A stretch of 23,213 nt of DNA from a virus, in IMG/VR virus record IMGVR_UViG_3300005523_000016, positions 1-23,213 of that record. One strand, given 5' to 3'. Below are positions 2,228 to 21,505 of this stretch, piece after piece. The notes under the pieces were generated by a model. It was given only the letters and a program-made list of their open reading frames with translations. It made no database searches and was not told the origin of the DNA. The position numbers were made by a program, and so were the translations under genes. The stretch's first letter is position 1. The number at the start of each line of letters is the position of its first letter.

Positions 2228-2783
2228 TAAGGTTAGCTTTCATAGGATGGTGCCATATTGCCAATTCAAAAATCTGTATATCTTGAGGTTGATCAATACA
2301 ATATTTTACATTTTTAGCTACTATTTCTGGATCCATTTTTTTAAATATACGTAACATTTTTACCATATCAGTATCAGTCCACCCAGCAATAATATTAGTT
2401 ACTCTACACTTTTGATTGCCGTTATTCATAGTAGTCAAACAAGCTTGTTTCACTCTATTGTGTAATTCTTGTTTATTAATTACATAGGATCCAAATTTAG
2501 ATTTAGTTTCAGGATAGTAACTAGAACTGCCTATATTAACTATAGTTTTTTCCTTATATCTCCAGTCTTGCCAAAATAAATTAAATAATTGTAATTGTGC
2601 ATCTTTAGATTGTGCATTATTAATAAAGATATCAAAATCTTTTGCTTCTTCAAATATTATTTCAGGTTGGTTAATATTATAGCCATTACTTCTGCTATAG
2701 CCAATTACATCATGCTCTTGTCCAAGTAGATCATAGATAGCCTGCCCTATACCTTTTGTATGGCCGGTTATTGCTATTTTCAT
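2223..2783 (-). CDS. Short-chain dehydrogenase/reductase-like protein
   Basis: A compact 186-aa Rossmann protein. Residues 1-14 give the NAD(P)-binding start MKIAITGHTKGIG (TGxxxGxG). NNAQ at about 55-58 replaces the usual NNAG. SSS at about 86-88 and SYVINK (YxxxK) at about 99-104 supply the catalytic Ser, Tyr and Lys, and GWTDTDM matches the PGxxxTxM region. The fold and active site are therefore complete although the protein is short for the family (about 250). Its ATG overlaps the stop of the radical SAM gene as ATGA, so the two are co-translated and may act on one substrate. The substrate cannot be told from sequence. Confidence 0.85.
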   Translation of the reverse strand: MKIAITGHTKGIGQAIYDLLGQEHDVIGYSRSNGYNINQPEIIFEEAKDFDIFINNAQSKDAQLQLFNLFWQDWRYKEKTIVNIGSSSYYPETKSKFGSYVINKQELHNRVKQACLTTMNNGNQKCRVTNIIAGWTDTDMVKMLRIFKKMDPEIVAKNVKYCIDQPQDIQIFELAIWHHPMKANLR

Positions 2784-4468
2784 GCTAAGGCCATTTCCTC
2801 ATTTAAGGATCTAACGTGATTAATTAATTTCAATTCAGTGTGGTAATTATCAATCCATTTACGATTACGTTCATACACAGGTTGAGGAACAACTTTTGCT
2901 GTAAGTATTCCAACAGACTCTAAATGATCGTATCCTAAACTACGTAACCGAGGATAAGCCCAAAAGTTTGTGTTATAACTGAAGTGTCTTTCAAATGCTG
3001 TTTTAGGATGATCTATAAGCATTTTTTCCCATTCAAGTGACATTTCTTGTGCGTCATGCAAATCCATTGTATTATGTTTCCAATAATAGTTAGGATAATA
3101 TTCTAAATGGATACCATAAGGATTGTCTGGCTTTCCGGTAAATGCTGGAGATTTACTATCATTGCCATCAGATACAAAAAATAATTCATATTGTATTTTG
3201 TCTAAGACACGTTGCTCTTGAAACCATCTTGCTGTATTACGTAAACTTTCCCTGGTTTCGCCAGGTAGGCCAATAATCATGCTTGCTAATATGAACACAT
3301 CGTCTTGTGCAACTTCACGCATCCATGTAATTATTTCTTTAATTTTCTCTGGATCTAAACCTTTTCCAGCTAATTTACCAGCTGTATGATCTAAAGTTTC
3401 TACTCCTAAAAATACACCTCGACAACCCATGTCAATCATCTTAGGCCACATTTCTGGATATTTATGAAACATATCAGGTCTACAATAGCTTATCCATTCC
3501 ATCTTAAAAGGTAAACTTTTAATTACTTTATGCATCATATTGATCTTTTCTGGACTATCATTAACAGTATCATCAGTAAGCATATATCCAGTAACACCAA
3601 AATTTTCGTAGTTATAGAGTAATTCTTCTCTTAAACAATCTGCATCTTTTATTAATGTTCCTCTAATATCGTAAAAGCAAAACTTGCAACCAAATCTACA
3701 ACCTTTGCTAATTTCTAAAGGCATCCATTCACCATTTTTTATAGCCATATTGTGTTGAAAATTACCTTTCAATACTTTTGCACCAGTTGATGCCATTTTA
3801 GTTTCATTAATAAAATATATTCCATTTTTTTCGTGTACTTTTTTAGGATCAAGTTCACCATTTAAAAATTCTACTATTGTATCTTCAGCATATCCGTTGA
3901 ATACATAATTTATGTATTTTTGAAATGCTGTAGGAAAATTTGCTTCTGGTCTTGTTTTAAAATGTATTTTGTAAAATAAATCTGTGATAGCACCACCTAG
4001 TATAAATTCTATATCTGGATTGATTTCATGGATACCTTCAAACCAATCATGGACTTTTGCGTGTCTTGTAAACCATAAATTAAAGTCTTGAGCTCTTGGA
4101 TTAAATGTATTAAGCAAAAACGTTGTTGATAGACCTATGTAATAAGTATCTTCGTTTATAAAATTTTCTATATATTGGTGGAAGTTTTCTATTTTTGTAA
4201 ACCAGTCAATAACAACACATTCCCAATCAGGGCAGTTTTCATTAATAGAACTGGCTACAGCATATGGACCCATGTACCGGCTCCAAAATGTATACTTGTT
4301 GTTAGTAGAAATCATTTTGACTTCGTACTTTTCGTTAGCTTTTTCAAGATGTTCTAAATGCTGTTGATTAAATTCATCCTCACTTAAATCTTCAAGAGCA
4401 GACTGTGTGGATCCGGTTATGTCATTATCAAAAATATCATTTAGTAGAATAATTCTTTTTTTACCCAT
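2780..4468 (-). CDS. Radical SAM enzyme, possibly with a B12-binding-like N-terminal fold
   Basis: The 562-aa protein has a radical SAM core at about residues 245-450. SKGCRFGCKFC holds the CxxxCxxC cluster ligands C257, C261 and C264, followed by MLTDDTVNDS, GVFLGVETLD and MIIGLPGET, the strand motifs of the family. Residues 65-215 contain YYIGLSTTF and IEFILGGAITD, which resemble the cobalamin-binding-like domain that often precedes this core, but I see no clear DxHxxG B12 motif. The C-terminal 110 residues may be a substrate domain. The gene is first in an operon with the dehydrogenase (4-nt overlap), behind a sigma70-like promoter at 4493-4521. The reaction is unknown; metabolite or modified-sugar chemistry would suit the partner enzyme. 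Confidence 0.87.
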   Translation of the reverse strand: MGKKRIILLNDIFDNDITGSTQSALEDLSEDEFNQQHLEHLEKANEKYEVKMISTNNKYTFWSRYMGPYAVASSINENCPDWECVVIDWFTKIENFHQYIENFINEDTYYIGLSTTFLLNTFNPRAQDFNLWFTRHAKVHDWFEGIHEINPDIEFILGGAITDLFYKIHFKTRPEANFPTAFQKYINYVFNGYAEDTIVEFLNGELDPKKVHEKNGIYFINETKMASTGAKVLKGNFQHNMAIKNGEWMPLEISKGCRFGCKFCFYDIRGTLIKDADCLREELLYNYENFGVTGYMLTDDTVNDSPEKINMMHKVIKSLPFKMEWISYCRPDMFHKYPEMWPKMIDMGCRGVFLGVETLDHTAGKLAGKGLDPEKIKEIITWMREVAQDDVFILASMIIGLPGETRESLRNTARWFQEQRVLDKIQYELFFVSDGNDSKSPAFTGKPDNPYGIHLEYYPNYYWKHNTMDLHDAQEMSLEWEKMLIDHPKTAFERHFSYNTNFWAYPRLRSLGYDHLESVGILTAKVVPQPVYERNRKWIDNYHTELKLINHVRSLNEEMALA

Positions 4469-5478: not shown

Positions 5479-6399
5479 TTATGCAACAATGTTGTTATTT
5501 TTAGCAATAAAGTTATTGTAATTTGATATTCTAAATGTAATCCTATGCAACACTCTTTTTGCAAGGATTTCTGGATCATTTTGATCTCTTTTGTGTAGTG
5601 TTAGTAATTGATCCATTAACACAATATCGCCTGGTTCATACCAATGCTGATAAATGTATTTTTCCTGAAACATATGATCATATAAGCGTTGGAACAGTGT
5701 TTCATCTTTTGTTATAATTTTACACTTGTTGTTGGTATAAAAATAAATGCCTTTCACACCTGCAATGTTTTGTTGAAGCAACCACATCTTATAAGGTTTG
5801 TCATCTGCTGAATCTTTCTTCATCATTTTTAATTGTGTTTCAGATAACCCTTTAGCCCATACTTCTGGTGTATATTCATATTCACAATAAACACCTTCTA
5901 ATTCTTTTTTGAATGATTCCGATAAATCTGCATAGGCTAAATTTGTATTCAAATAACTTGTGCTGGTGTTTTCACAACCTTCATAACCTTGTAGTGCTAC
6001 ACCATCAGCACGATCCAGTCCATTTAGATTAGCGTGCCAATCCAATATGCCTGAACTGAATATACCTGTTGATATACCTTTTTTATTCTTTTTTGCAGTT
6101 GTTCTTTGTATAGGATATAATTCTTTGTCTTTATTCCATTCAGAGGTAGAAGGAGGCGTTCTTCCAAGATAAAATTCTCCTTCTTTTGTATATATGAATT
6201 GTCTATAATTAGCAATAGTGCCTATACGTTCAATAAAATTTACAAAGTGATACGGAAGACGATTTTGTTTTTTTAGTACCACTATTAAATTATTTTGTAG
6301 TAATTCTTTAATGCCAAGAACATCATCACCACTAATATTTGCAATGTCAACATCATTAACTTTTACAGCTACACCATTATTAATATATTGAAATTGCAT
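5479..6399 (-). CDS. TauD/TfdA-like 2OG-Fe(II) oxygenase with altered metal triad
   Basis: The 306-aa protein follows the TauD/TfdA plan. An N-terminal NNLIVVLKKQ strand comes first, then LDWHANLNG at about 119-127. GVALQGYEGCENTSTSYLNT follows, then AYADLSESFKKELEGV. The C-terminal box EPGDIVLMDQLLTLHKRD (255-272) and KRVLHRITF supply the distal His269 and the Arg that normally binds 2-oxoglutarate. The proximal HxD reads H122-A-N124, so the Asp ligand is replaced by Asn (codon AAT). The family hydroxylates small molecules such as taurine using iron and 2-oxoglutarate. Here the chemistry may differ or activity may be lost. The start has only a weak SD. No partner gene is evident next to it. 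Confidence 0.75.
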   Translation of the reverse strand: MQFQYINNGVAVKVNDVDIANISGDDVLGIKELLQNNLIVVLKKQNRLPYHFVNFIERIGTIANYRQFIYTKEGEFYLGRTPPSTSEWNKDKELYPIQRTTAKKNKKGISTGIFSSGILDWHANLNGLDRADGVALQGYEGCENTSTSYLNTNLAYADLSESFKKELEGVYCEYEYTPEVWAKGLSETQLKMMKKDSADDKPYKMWLLQQNIAGVKGIYFYTNNKCKIITKDETLFQRLYDHMFQEKYIYQHWYEPGDIVLMDQLLTLHKRDQNDPEILAKRVLHRITFRISNYNNFIAKNNNIVA

Positions 6400-14779: not shown

Positions 14780-15460
14780 TTAATGATGTTTGTCATAATA
14801 TTGATATACTCTATTCCACCATTCTGTTTTCCAATCGTCAAATTCATTTGGCCATAGATCAAATTGTTGGTATTCACCTGCTCTGCTACACATAAAGATG
14901 TGTCCTTCACGTATTTCAGTGTTGTGTATTTCATTATGTGCAATAGCATAAGCCGTTAGTTGTAAGAAATAATCTTCAACCCATTCTAATTTTTTAGGCT
15001 TATTAGTTTGCTTGAAGTCCATTATACAAGGATTTCCTTTGTATACGCCAACTAAATCAGTTGTGCCTGCATATAGTTTTGGAACGTACAAAGGAACTTC
15101 GCTACCCCAAATTTCATCTACATCATCCATTGCATGAACTTTTATTTTTGTAGCCATTGAGTGTGCTTGTTGAGCATATGGATTACCGCCAGGAGTAGGC
15201 CATTCTCCTGTATCAATGTAATCTTCTAAATATTTGTGCATACGTGTTCCAACACCACTTGCCTCTGTGACAATCTCTTGTGCTTTTTGTTCTCCCACAC
15301 GTTTTTTCCATGCAATCAAATGTGTTTTATCTTTTGTTTCGCCTAAAATAGTTGTAACACTTGCAACTGGCGGACCACCTGGAGTTTCATATCGACGTTT
15401 ACCATCAACATTTACTCTTTTTAATTTTTCATATTTGTATTTTTCTATAATTAAGGACAT
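14780..15460 (-). CDS. PD-(D/E)XK (RecB/Cas4-like) nuclease
   Basis: The 226-aa protein has the RecB-family exonuclease layout. VASVTTILG and GVGTRMHKYLEDYID (His75) come first. E121 follows in SEVPLYV, then D135 in AGTTDLVGVY and D148-x-K150 in CIMDFKQTNK. QLTAYAIA (Gln167, Tyr171) is the trailing QxxxY motif. All expected metal-binding residues are present, so it should be an active DNA exo- or endonuclease in replication or recombination. No Fe-S cysteine cluster of Cas4 type is evident. The promoter at 15467-15495 places the predicted +1 on the A of the ATG, and there is no SD, so a leaderless mRNA is likely. No alternative downstream start fits the domain. Confidence 0.87.
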   Translation of the reverse strand: MSLIIEKYKYEKLKRVNVDGKRRYETPGGPPVASVTTILGETKDKTHLIAWKKRVGEQKAQEIVTEASGVGTRMHKYLEDYIDTGEWPTPGGNPYAQQAHSMATKIKVHAMDDVDEIWGSEVPLYVPKLYAGTTDLVGVYKGNPCIMDFKQTNKPKKLEWVEDYFLQLTAYAIAHNEIHNTEIREGHIFMCSRAGEYQQFDLWPNEFDDWKTEWWNRVYQYYDKHH

Positions 15461-15496: not shown

Positions 15497-15724
15497 TTAT
15501 AAGTTATCGCCTACATCTGTTGCTCTTTTTGCCATTGTAGATACAGTATCTTGGTCTCCTCCACCCTTAGGCAAACTATCACCAAAACTTATCTTTTCTC
15601 CATCATAGTTACTAACAATATTTTTTATACGATCATCAGCTTTAAAAGCCGCATCAAATGTTTCATAATTAAATTGTGGAATTTCACTATTATCCATCAT
15701 CTTATCTAATTCTTCAAAAGACAT
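15497..15724 (-). CDS. Downstream part of a probable -1 frameshift product (75 aa from its own ATG)
   Basis: From ATG 15724 the frame gives MSFEELDKMMDNSEIPQFNY, then TFDAAFKADDRIKNIV and a Gly-rich tail. The same frame is open upstream to the slippery site at 15796-15802. The 24 extra codons read VTEEVNTDNLYRLLRLIKAE then GIDE, a convincing helical, protein-like stretch that a stand-alone gene would leave unused. So it is probably translated mostly as a C-terminal extension of the 255-aa protein after a -1 shift, giving about 354 aa. Independent initiation at the ATG is possible (AAGG about 10 nt upstream). The function is unknown; the context is structural. Confidence 0.7.
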   Translation of the reverse strand: MSFEELDKMMDNSEIPQFNYETFDAAFKADDRIKNIVSNYDGEKISFGDSLPKGGGDQDTVSTMAKRATDVGDNL

Positions 15725-15792
15725 TTCGTCAATGCCTTCTGCTTTGATAAGTCGTAATAGTCTATAAAGATTATCTGTGTTAACTTCTTCGG

Positions 15793-16560
15793 TTACTTTT
15801 TTTTTGATGCGAGGGTGGTTGCCAGCTTACGTGGGTCTACACTCTCTCTAGTTTCTCTACCTGCAACTTCATCACCGCCAGCCGCTGGTTCAGCCGCCGC
15901 AAAATCATCATCTCCTGCAGGAATTGCGGCATCATCTTGATCAACTGTAGGTTCCATACTTGGATCTACTGCCATATCGTCACCACCCATAGGAGTAGTC
16001 ATTTCGCCTTCGCCAGTAAGCATGGTTACTCCATTACTCAATGCGGCTCTTGTTCCTTCCATTGATGTGTATAATTCGTCTAGGCTTGCTTTAATAGTTT
16101 CTACAAAAGCATTACTTTGCTCTACACCCATTTCATCACGTATTGCATCTGCAAGATCTAACATTGATTCTGTTTTCATTTCTGCAGTATCTTCCATCCA
16201 ACCTGTAACTCTATCTACCATGTCTTTAGCGGCCATAACAATCTCAGCCTGGTCTTCAGCACCTTCGCTAAGTTCTGTTTCTTCTATAATATTGTCACTA
16301 TCAACGTCACCTCTTTCAGATAGTTCGGCGTTTAGAATATCCAAAAATAGTTTTGATTTTTGATAGTCGTCATTTTCAACTACAGCATTAAAATTTTCTT
16401 TCATTTCAATGGCACTTAACTTTGTTCTCAATTTATTTCGAGCATCTTGTAGTTGTTCAATAGTAAAGTTTTCAAGTGAAAGCTTTGAACCAAATCGTTT
16501 TTCTAGGCTTTCATTCAAACTTTTAGCAGTTACTGGTTTTGCAAATTCTGAAATATTCAT
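15793..16560 (-). CDS. Structural-type conserved phage protein, 255 aa, with frameshift site at its end
   Basis: Residues 25-85 contain FTIEQLQDARNKLRTKLSAI and the YQKSKLFLDILNAELSERG box. I recall this from virion-associated proteins of marine T4-like phages; no function is assigned. The middle (100-190) is helical and acidic. The C-terminal 80 residues are a low-complexity, Asp/Ala/Gly-rich linker that ends VDPRKLATTLASKKK. The last codons TCA AAA AAA AAG TAA contain a dnaX-type slippery site right before the stop. SD AGGAA and a late-type GATAAATAC (16589-16597) precede it. Acidic, disordered regions are common in scaffold or core proteins, so a prohead-core role is possible but unproven. 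Confidence 0.82.
   Translation of the reverse strand: MNISEFAKPVTAKSLNESLEKRFGSKLSLENFTIEQLQDARNKLRTKLSAIEMKENFNAVVENDDYQKSKLFLDILNAELSERGDVDSDNIIEETELSEGAEDQAEIVMAAKDMVDRVTGWMEDTAEMKTESMLDLADAIRDEMGVEQSNAFVETIKASLDELYTSMEGTRAALSNGVTMLTGEGEMTTPMGGDDMAVDPSMEPTVDQDDAAIPAGDDDFAAAEPAAGGDEVAGRETRESVDPRKLATTLASKKK
15796..15802 (-). other. Candidate -1 programmed ribosomal frameshift site (A AAA AAG)
   Basis: The minus strand reads A AAA AAG in the zero frame within a run of nine A (15797-15805), immediately followed by TAA. This is the dnaX-type slippery heptamer. Slipping back one base continues into an open frame that joins the 75-aa ORF. No obvious SD-like stimulator or strong downstream hairpin is seen. 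Polymerase slippage on A9 could give the same result. Confidence 0.65.
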
Positions 16561-18070: not shown

Positions 18071-18436
18071 AAACATTTTGAAAACAATATTTTTACCTTC
18101 TCCTTTTGTTATGAAAACATTTTCTTTAAATTTACTTGTCTCTTCAAGATCTGCTATGAATGGCACTAACATAAAATCGTTTTCTAGCATTTCTATTGTT
18201 AATGCACCTTCGTATGCAATAGAAAAAGTTAGTTGCCATACTCTATTACTTCCTAGATCAGTGTCTTGGTATATTATTATAGGATCATCATCTATAGTAG
18301 GATTCACTCTTAACCCTACTGTATTAATTACAGTCATATAATTTTGTTTTTGTCCATAAGCTATTCTATTTTCTTTTGAAACTTTGATATGATTTGTAAT
18401 ATCAACTGTTGTTTCAATAATAAATTTAGTTTCCAT
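18062..18436 (-). CDS. Conserved phage hypothetical protein, about 124 aa
   Basis: I place the start at ATG 18436 (METKFIIETTVDITN), preceded by GGAT at SD distance and overlapping the sulfotransferase stop by 11 nt; ATG 18448 would add four residues. The chain is beta-rich: TKFIIETTVDITNHIKVS, then MTVINTVGLRVNPTIDDDPI. NRVWQLTFSIAYEGALTIEM and DFMLVPFIADLEE follow. Marine T4-like phages seem to encode similar proteins, from memory, without a function. A virion component is plausible. Confidence 0.75.
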   Translation of the reverse strand: METKFIIETTVDITNHIKVSKENRIAYGQKQNYMTVINTVGLRVNPTIDDDPIIIYQDTDLGSNRVWQLTFSIAYEGALTIEMLENDFMLVPFIADLEETSKFKENVFITKGEGKNIVFKMFDK

Positions 18437-19004
18437 ACTTATATCCATATTCTAATACATCTTTAAAATAAAGATCTCGTACAAAATCTACTAATTCTTT
18501 TGTGTAAAGATCTTTATAGTTATATTCTATATTCTTATTTGTAATTGGTAAAGGAACATGGCAATCCAATTTATCTTGTATTTGTTTAAAATCTTCTTCT
18601 AGATTCTCATAACGTAGTATTTTTGTATGAGTGCCAAACCAATCATGTTGTGGTGTGTCTAAGCTATACCAGGCTCTAGCCCAAAGTAAAAAGGGTTGAA
18701 AAGATAAATTTGATGCTTGTTTACTAACCCGTTTTAATAACCAATCCTTGAAATTTTGATTTCCATGATTTGCAAATAGATACCAACTTGCTAATCTTTC
18801 CCAAGGATTTCTAACTACTCCAAATGTATATGTTGTATTTGGAAAATATGTATTAACTTCAACAATATGTCCATGCTTTTTACCTTCAACTGTTTTAAAA
18901 TTTTCATCTAGCCATTGACTTATACTTGTGCCAGCAGTTTTAGGATTATGAATAAAAGTTATATAATAATCAGGAAGGTAACGCATCTTGTACTTACCAG
19001 CCAT
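18426..19004 (-). CDS. Sulfotransferase-family protein
   Basis: ITFIHNPKTAGTSISQWL at about 15-32 is the 5'-phosphosulfate loop of PAPS-dependent sulfotransferases (PKTAGTS, Lys22). FGVVRNPWERLASWYLF at 61-77 is the 3'-phosphate-binding motif with Arg65 and Ser73. KILRYENLEEDF near residue 130 matches the family's third conserved segment. Such enzymes transfer sulfate from PAPS to sugars or other acceptors, so modification of a glycan or lipid is likely (inference). The 192-aa size suits carbohydrate sulfotransferases. ATG 19004 abuts a terminator; ATG 18986 (MRYLPDYY) is an alternative start closer to the family's usual N-terminus. Confidence 0.83.
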   Translation of the reverse strand: MAGKYKMRYLPDYYITFIHNPKTAGTSISQWLDENFKTVEGKKHGHIVEVNTYFPNTTYTFGVVRNPWERLASWYLFANHGNQNFKDWLLKRVSKQASNLSFQPFLLWARAWYSLDTPQHDWFGTHTKILRYENLEEDFKQIQDKLDCHVPLPITNKNIEYNYKDLYTKELVDFVRDLYFKDVLEYGYKYGN

Positions 19005-20709: not shown

Positions 20710-20717
20710 TATAAATA
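20710..20717 (+). promoter_or_regulatory. T4-type late promoter for the lipase gene (TATAAATA, perfect)
   Basis: The plus strand reads TATAAATATG, an exact match to the T4 late octamer, 23 nt before the lipase ATG at 20741 with SD GGAGG between (20729-20733). Confidence 0.65.
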
Positions 20718-20740
20718 TGTGTATAATTGGAGGTGCATAT

Positions 20741-21505
20741 ATGATTACAAAAATGACATTCAAAGAAAGATCTTTATTATTTGCCAAACTTTCTAAAATA
20801 GCATACAATAATATTGATGAAGCAAAGTCGCAAGCAAAAAAATTAAAATTTACCACAACTGAGTTTTATGATAAAGACGGAGCTCAGGCATATAGATTTC
20901 AAAATAAAGATGATTTAGTTATTGCTTGCCGTGGTACTCAACCAACAGAATGGAATGATATAAAAGCAGACCTCAGAGCAATGCCTGTATTAGCTGAAAC
21001 AGTAAGTAGAGTGCATAAAGGCTTTAAAGCTGAAGTTGACGAACTTTGGCCAATGGTATTAGAAGATTTACAAAGAAAAACAAATCAAAACAAAAAGATT
21101 TGGTTTTGTGGACATAGTTTAGGAGCCGCAATGGCTACAATTATGGCAAGCAGATGTCATTTATACAAAGATATAGCACCTGTAGAAGAACTTTATACCT
21201 ATGGCTCACCAAGAGTAGGCTGGAAAAAATATTGCAGATCCTTAGGTGTAACTCATAGACGTTGGAGAAACAATAATGATATTGTTACAAAGGTTCCTTT
21301 TAACATAATGGGTTATGCTCATGATGGTAAAGAATATTATATCACCAGCAAGAATAGAATAGGAAAGCCAAGTATAGGTGATTGGTGGAATGGTGTATGG
21401 CAAGGATTAAAACAAGGAAGATTTGATTCTATAGGTGATCATGACATTCAAGCTTATTATGATAACATTGATAAAGCTTTATCAGATGTTCCTCCACACT
21501 ACTAA
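20741..21505 (+). CDS. Class 3 (alpha/beta-hydrolase) lipase
   Basis: I start at ATG 20741, 8 nt after SD GGAGG; the ATG at 20717 lies within the promoter octamer. The 254-aa protein has the lipase_3 plan: IACRGTQPTEWNDIKADL (oxyanion RGT at 64-66), WFCGHSLGAAMA with nucleophile Ser126, YTYGSPRVG, Asp180 in RNNNDIVTKVP and His194 in GYAHDGK. The triad is complete, so an active lipid esterase is likely. No signal peptide is seen, so it acts in the cell unless released at lysis. It is the only plus-strand gene in the window, meets the oxygenase gene tail to tail with overlapping stops, and may be an acquired gene used late to damage membranes. Confidence 0.88.
   Translation: MITKMTFKERSLLFAKLSKIAYNNIDEAKSQAKKLKFTTTEFYDKDGAQAYRFQNKDDLVIACRGTQPTEWNDIKADLRAMPVLAETVSRVHKGFKAEVDELWPMVLEDLQRKTNQNKKIWFCGHSLGAAMATIMASRCHLYKDIAPVEELYTYGSPRVGWKKYCRSLGVTHRRWRNNNDIVTKVPFNIMGYAHDGKEYYITSKNRIGKPSIGDWWNGVWQGLKQGRFDSIGDHDIQAYYDNIDKALSDVPPHY

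Follow-up and report, generated by a model that had tools for sequence, protein, structure and literature searches.

A conserved slippery site probably directs -1 frameshifting in a virion-type gene of uncultured jumbo phages

Introduction

Does a phage gene that stops directly after a run of adenines also continue, one base back, into a second protein? This question is raised by a 23.2-kb fragment of an uncultured phage (IMGVR_UViG_3300005523_000016, positions 1-23,213; hereafter the window), for which a sequence-only reading had proposed that a programmed -1 frameshift joins a structural-type gene to a C-terminal extension hidden in another frame. Frameshifting of the -1 kind is known in phage structural genes, but the cases that we found do not include this gene family. 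Our searches of the open-licence literature for a frameshift either in this gene or in jumbo or T4-like phages also returned no description, which agrees with the suspicion voiced in that reading that the case had not been described.

Results

Layout of the junction

Direct reading of the minus strand, on which all features of the junction lie, revealed that the zero-frame gene (15793..16560, 255 aa) ends in ...GCA TCA AAA AAA AAG TAA. The slippery run AAAAAAAAAG (15796..15805) comprises nine A's at 15805-15797 and a G at 15796, its last seven bases form the dnaX heptamer A AAA AAG (15802-15796), and the zero-frame stop TAA (15793..15795) stands immediately 3' of it. The -1 frame extension (15497..15796) begins with GTA at 15796-15794 (GTA ACC GAA GAA GTT AAC...) and runs for 99 codons to a stop at 15499-15497, with its first ATG at codon 25 (15724-15722), such that 24 codons (15725..15796) lie between the slip site and that ATG. 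The predicted products are a short form of 255 aa and a fusion of 354 aa, and these positions and lengths, from the gene end to the two products, are as the sequence-only reading had given them. A gene for a PD-(D/E)XK-type exonuclease (PHROG 298; 14780..15460, minus strand) is the downstream neighbor.

Elsewhere in the window, three host-type enzymes were recognized on the minus strand, namely a radical SAM protein (2780-4468), a TauD-family dioxygenase (5479-6399) and a sulfotransferase (18426-19004). A class 3 lipase at 20717-21505 (PF01764, 1.6e-19) is the sole recognized gene on the plus strand, all other recognized genes being on the minus strand.

Conservation of the slip site and the open frame

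Homologs of the 255-aa protein were collected from viral contigs with five queries, identical copies were dropped, and the junction was readable in 137 distinct loci, the window counted among them. The frameshift-type family consists of uncultured phages of jumbo type, most of them marine. Within the clade, two contigs (G002 and G003:C57) are 335-358 kb long and carry a T4-type Gp23 capsid gene more than 200 kb from the frameshift locus on the same contig, which marks these as T4-type jumbo phages. One locus on a 335-kb contig (L090) was found inside a Neomarinimicrobiota MAG bin and another (L091) inside a Rickettsiales bin, placements that are either binning errors or a hint of the host.

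An in-phase A AAA AAN heptamer was kept in 132 of the 137 homologs at 0-12 nt before the zero-frame stop (0 nt in 89 of the 132, 3-12 nt in the remainder). In every one of these 132 the -1 frame was open, for 98-129 codons, with no counter-example. The last base of the site was usually G and sometimes A or C, and the run measured A9 in 118 homologs, A10 in 6, A8 in 6 and A6 in 2, with both A6 variants retaining the heptamer (GGA AAA AAG). Codon phase was held too, the run ending at codon position 2 in 123 of the 132. Of 87 non-redundant homologs, 78 had the codons AAA AAA AAG, where lysine usage across the gene would lead one to expect 0.15, and the codon preceding them is variable (TCA, CCA, TTA, CGA) yet has A at its third position in 79 of the 87, which argues that nucleotides, and not amino acids, are selected at this site. 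Judged from these sequence comparisons, conservation of the site is confirmed to lie far beyond chance.

Variants of this arrangement were seen in several loci. Four of them (L067, L340, L180 and L061) possess a second slippery run in the zero frame, 48-57 nt upstream of the main site, that looks like a duplicated slippery cassette and at which a -1 slip would be halted two codons later by a stop. L040 and L053 have what looks like a further duplicated cassette, with TCAAAAAAAAAG occurring again 23 nt downstream of the main site and within the -1 frame, where a second slip would exit that frame. The zero-frame gene of L013 (3001-4182) has an N-part of 394 aa, much longer than in its relatives, with an insertion that sits before the slippery site; the site and the extension are intact.

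Selection on the extension

Substitution patterns point to purifying selection on the extension, with a dN/dS of 0.138 over 45 independent pairs, while the same DNA read in the two shifted frames gave 1.26 and 2.46. For the first 24 codons of the extension the ratio was 0.20, and for the codons preceding the first Met it was 0.19 (from the same 45 pairs). Across frameshift-type homologs the first Met falls anywhere from codon 10 to codon 93, a variation so wide that no independent start is conserved in the -1 frame, and the ratio of 0.20 indicates that the 24 pre-ATG codons are coding without a start of their own. Purifying selection combined with a wandering Met is the signature of a C-terminal part that is reached from upstream. 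The sequence-only reading had looked for conservation of the A-run, the -1 frame and the pre-ATG codons under purifying selection, and this is what the homologs revealed; its argument that the pre-ATG stretch is reached by frameshifting is likewise supported, by the selection that precedes the first Met and by the lack of a conserved start.

RNA structure around the site

Across the family, predicted RNA structure was enriched in the 90 nt that lie 3' of the slip site (15706..15795 in the window, minus strand). The mean dinucleotide-shuffle z was -1.6 at the site versus about 0 to -0.5 from 60 nt onward, and the synonymous-permutation z was -1.84 +- 0.16 over the first 90 nt versus -0.09 to -0.38 past 120 nt. 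One subgroup of 28 sequences (KAAGVAAL) has two predicted hairpins 3' of the slip site, a proximal hairpin at a distance of about 11 nt (GTAGATAG...CTATCTAC) and a distal hairpin at about 50 nt (AAAGCGGCC-GGAGT-GGCCGCTTT). Compensatory changes, in which both partners of a pair differ, amounted to 22 cells in this subgroup versus 8.1 +- 2.0 in shuffles (0 of 500 reached 22) and 0-5 cells in slid controls, and the two covarying pairs of the distal stem (GC/AU; CG/AU/UA) connect third codon positions of the -1 frame. Stems also occur in other members: L354 has an A AAA AAC site and, 10 nt downstream of it, a stem of very high predicted stability (about -27 kcal/mol), and L165 (A10) has a similar proximal stem. 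The window's own copy folds moderately over these 90 nt, at -15.5 kcal/mol with a synonymous z of -1.6, and shows no significant hairpin at 0-60 nt (synonymous z +1.1). Upstream of the site, no enriched or conserved position of a Shine-Dalgarno-like stimulator was found across the family. The family-wide excess of structure and the one covarying subgroup point to a 3' stimulatory RNA element at the level of the family.

Loci without the A-run

Five of the 137 loci (L006, L007, L008, L011 and L043) have no A-run and instead possess a stop/start overlap, TAATG, from which the second part opens with its own Met (MKISDIINEGISPK in most). In the N-part tree these five form one clade (support 100/99) that is sister to the frameshifting L005 and L020, and this marine clade is nested within the frameshifting one. 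Because the TAATG loci form a single nested clade, frameshifting appears to have been lost once, with the stop-start overlap in its place. Homologs lacking the A-run, which the sequence-only reading had regarded as evidence against frameshifting, do exist, but they are these five, which share one nested origin and a TAATG start.

Counterparts in isolated phages and identity of the two parts

Searches by tblastn with the window protein and with that of L034 against isolated phages gave no match, and the link to isolates was found via the exonuclease neighbor and phage GAP32. In GAP32, 121Q, RaK2, Munch and XaC1 the two parts are separate adjacent genes whose order matches that of the window, the exonuclease gene again comes next, and the second gene encodes 107-116 aa from its own ATG (PHROG 15050 for GAP32). 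The frameshifted form itself is carried by no known isolate.

The N-part matched PHROG 14154 ('virion structural protein') in 38 of 39 members (best 3.9e-17), and a blastp search of a small set aligned it with GAP32_293 at 30% over 174 aa (1e-9). No family was returned for it from Pfam, NCBIfam or PDB folds. The protein is acidic (pI 4.2), and its AlphaFold2 model is helical with a disordered acidic linker. The extension has a predicted winged-helix-like domain and a conserved C-terminal tail, DTVxxMAKRATD. Its putative isolate counterpart is GAP32_294 (PHROG 15050), a homology that is weak by sequence and drawn partly from gene order: isolate C-parts and marine extensions matched weakly (56% probability in hhalign; 4e-6 to 6e-4 in an hmmsearch of five sequences), both end in V-x-x-MA-x-x-A, and PHROG 15050 was not among the matches when the marine extensions were scanned directly against PHROG. 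The AlphaFold2 model of the extension is winged-helix-like at a pLDDT of 70, and since this model is of moderate quality and the fold-search matches were weak (best E 0.04), we treat the winged helix only as a lead.

RefSeq records give the isolate counterparts of the N-part and the C-part alike a virion structural label ('structural' in 121Q), which bears out the description of the gene as structural-type in the sequence-only reading. The virion proteome of phage phAPEC6 contains gp182c, of 12.33 kDa (PMC7247149). The C-part of 121Q, gp28, has an identical mass of 12.33 kDa, and by mass and gene order gp182c would be its counterpart.

Proposed mechanism and alternatives

We consider it very probable that a programmed -1 ribosomal frameshift at this locus yields two products, one of 255 aa and a fusion of 354 aa whose added C-terminal domain is winged-helix-like. 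Most ribosomes would read TCA AAA AAA AAG and halt at the adjoining TAA to give the 255-aa acidic virion-type protein, and a fraction would slip back one base on the run (the in-phase A AAA AAG, with A AAA AAA before it), continue with GTA ACC GAA... and append 99 residues comprising the winged-helix-like domain and the conserved tail. In many lineages a downstream RNA hairpin probably raises the slippage rate. The frameshift would set the ratio of plain to extended protein, whereas isolated relatives make two separate virion proteins. That slippage occurs, the rate at which it does so, its ribosomal nature and the entry of both forms into virions are what we infer from these patterns. Our further suggestion is tentative and more doubtful than the frameshift itself: the slip rate may fix a minority of virion copies that carry the winged-helix domain (possibly DNA- or protein-binding), a packaged stoichiometry that in isolated relatives is set by two genes, and the conserved A9, longer than the minimal A6, might let RNA polymerase slip as well, both routes feeding the same product.

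A run of nine A's is of a length on which RNA polymerases can slip, and it is conceivable that a polymerase adds an A to some transcripts, such that the fusion is read in frame by a ribosome that never shifts. The run reaches at least nine A's in 124 of the 132 homologs, which exceeds what the heptamer needs, and the third-position A of the preceding codon is kept as well. However, A9 would be explained as well by selection for the tandem overlapping heptamers A AAA AAA and A AAA AAG, the -1 frame is still open in the two homologs with A6 and a G and in the six with A8, such that a homopolymer of about nine A's is not universal, the codon phase of the run is held, and downstream RNA structure with compensatory changes fits a ribosomal stimulator. 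On the strength of the A6 and A8 variants and the RNA structure, we regard polymerase slippage as unlikely to be the main route, while on A9 it may contribute.

The sequence-only reading had also likened the pair to the G/GT strategy of tail assembly, though in a different family. As a functional analogy this stands, since here too a -1 frameshift would fuse two adjacent ORFs and leave the long form in the minority, the arrangement known from lambda G/GT. That the gene actually is a tail-assembly-chaperone pair, a tape-measure scaffold absent from virions, we consider improbable. HMM and hhalign comparisons gave no significant match to T4 gp26 or gp51, which we take to be the T4 chaperone candidates, nor to 18 other T4 proteins, and the only match to Pfam TAC families was a chance-level one (E 0.064, in 1 of 39). 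The neighbors are the exonuclease and small genes rather than tube or tape-measure genes, and a sheath search for the tail genes of these phages was negative. Absence from virions would also disagree with the virion labels on isolate homologs of both parts and with the equal masses of phAPEC6 gp182c and the 121Q C-part.

Slightly less probable still is that the second part is made only separately, through reinitiation or an internal start, with no fusion. It does have a gene of its own in isolates and an own start in the five marine loci with TAATG, but in the frameshift-type homologs the first -1 Met is unconserved and the codons before it are under purifying selection, and the A-run is present where the junction has no start codon and absent where TAATG exists. 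A sequencing or assembly error in a metagenomic homopolymer, or a decayed gene, whose frames a one-base insertion would join into one continuous A10 frame, is refuted by the comparative data, as 132 distinct sequences, drawn from many samples, share one phase, the A10 homologs end in a stop as well (TCA AAA AAA AAA TAA), A8 homologs are phase-compatible and the A6 variants have no long homopolymer.

Discussion

With a programmed -1 ribosomal frameshift as the preferred reading, a gene family found in >100 distinct uncultured phages would be added to the few phage structural genes in which -1 frameshifting is conserved, and automated annotation would be truncating or splitting a virion-type protein in these genomes. 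The family also offers a natural experiment, in that one virion protein pair occurs as separate genes in isolates, as a probable frameshift fusion in the majority of the marine clade and, in one lineage that would have lost the frameshift, as a stop-start pair at TAATG. Because these three gene arrangements exist in nature, the value of covalent linkage and of the ratio between forms is directly testable.

Among known systems, the pair of PHROG 14154 and PHROG 15050 in GAP32-, 121Q-, RaK2- and Munch-type phages shares its parts with this locus: both appear homologous, their order is unchanged and the exonuclease gene again follows, but in isolates they are separate ORFs with their own ATGs and a junction without a comparable A-heptamer slip site. 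Frameshifting of the dnaX type uses the same heptamer in the same phase with a nearby stop, and a downstream stem-loop is predicted in many lineages here as well. Unlike in dnaX, a slip here would give the longer product, as the zero frame stops at once, no conserved upstream Shine-Dalgarno-like element was found in the family, and the gene is of a phage virion type.

The lambda G/GT pair likewise consists of two adjacent ORFs that a -1 slip fuses into a minor long form, but we found no homology to it, the genomic setting differs, and the homologs here carry virion labels where G and GT are absent from mature virions (PMC5009743). A 2022 paper cited in PRFect (PMC10885494) deals with tail chaperones of T4-like phages whose production relies on a mechanism other than frameshifting. 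The nearest functional parallels, closer than G/GT, would by analogy be T7 gene 10 (10A/10B) and the major head protein of phage A2, both cited as cases of -1 frameshifting (PMC5009743, PMC10885494). There, as proposed here, a -1 slip extends the C-terminus of a part of the structural-protein copies. The T7 and A2 genes encode major capsid proteins, whereas in our phages the T4-type gp23 capsid gene is separate, the protein in question belongs to an unrelated family, and what frameshifting would add to it is encoded by a gene of its own in isolated relatives.
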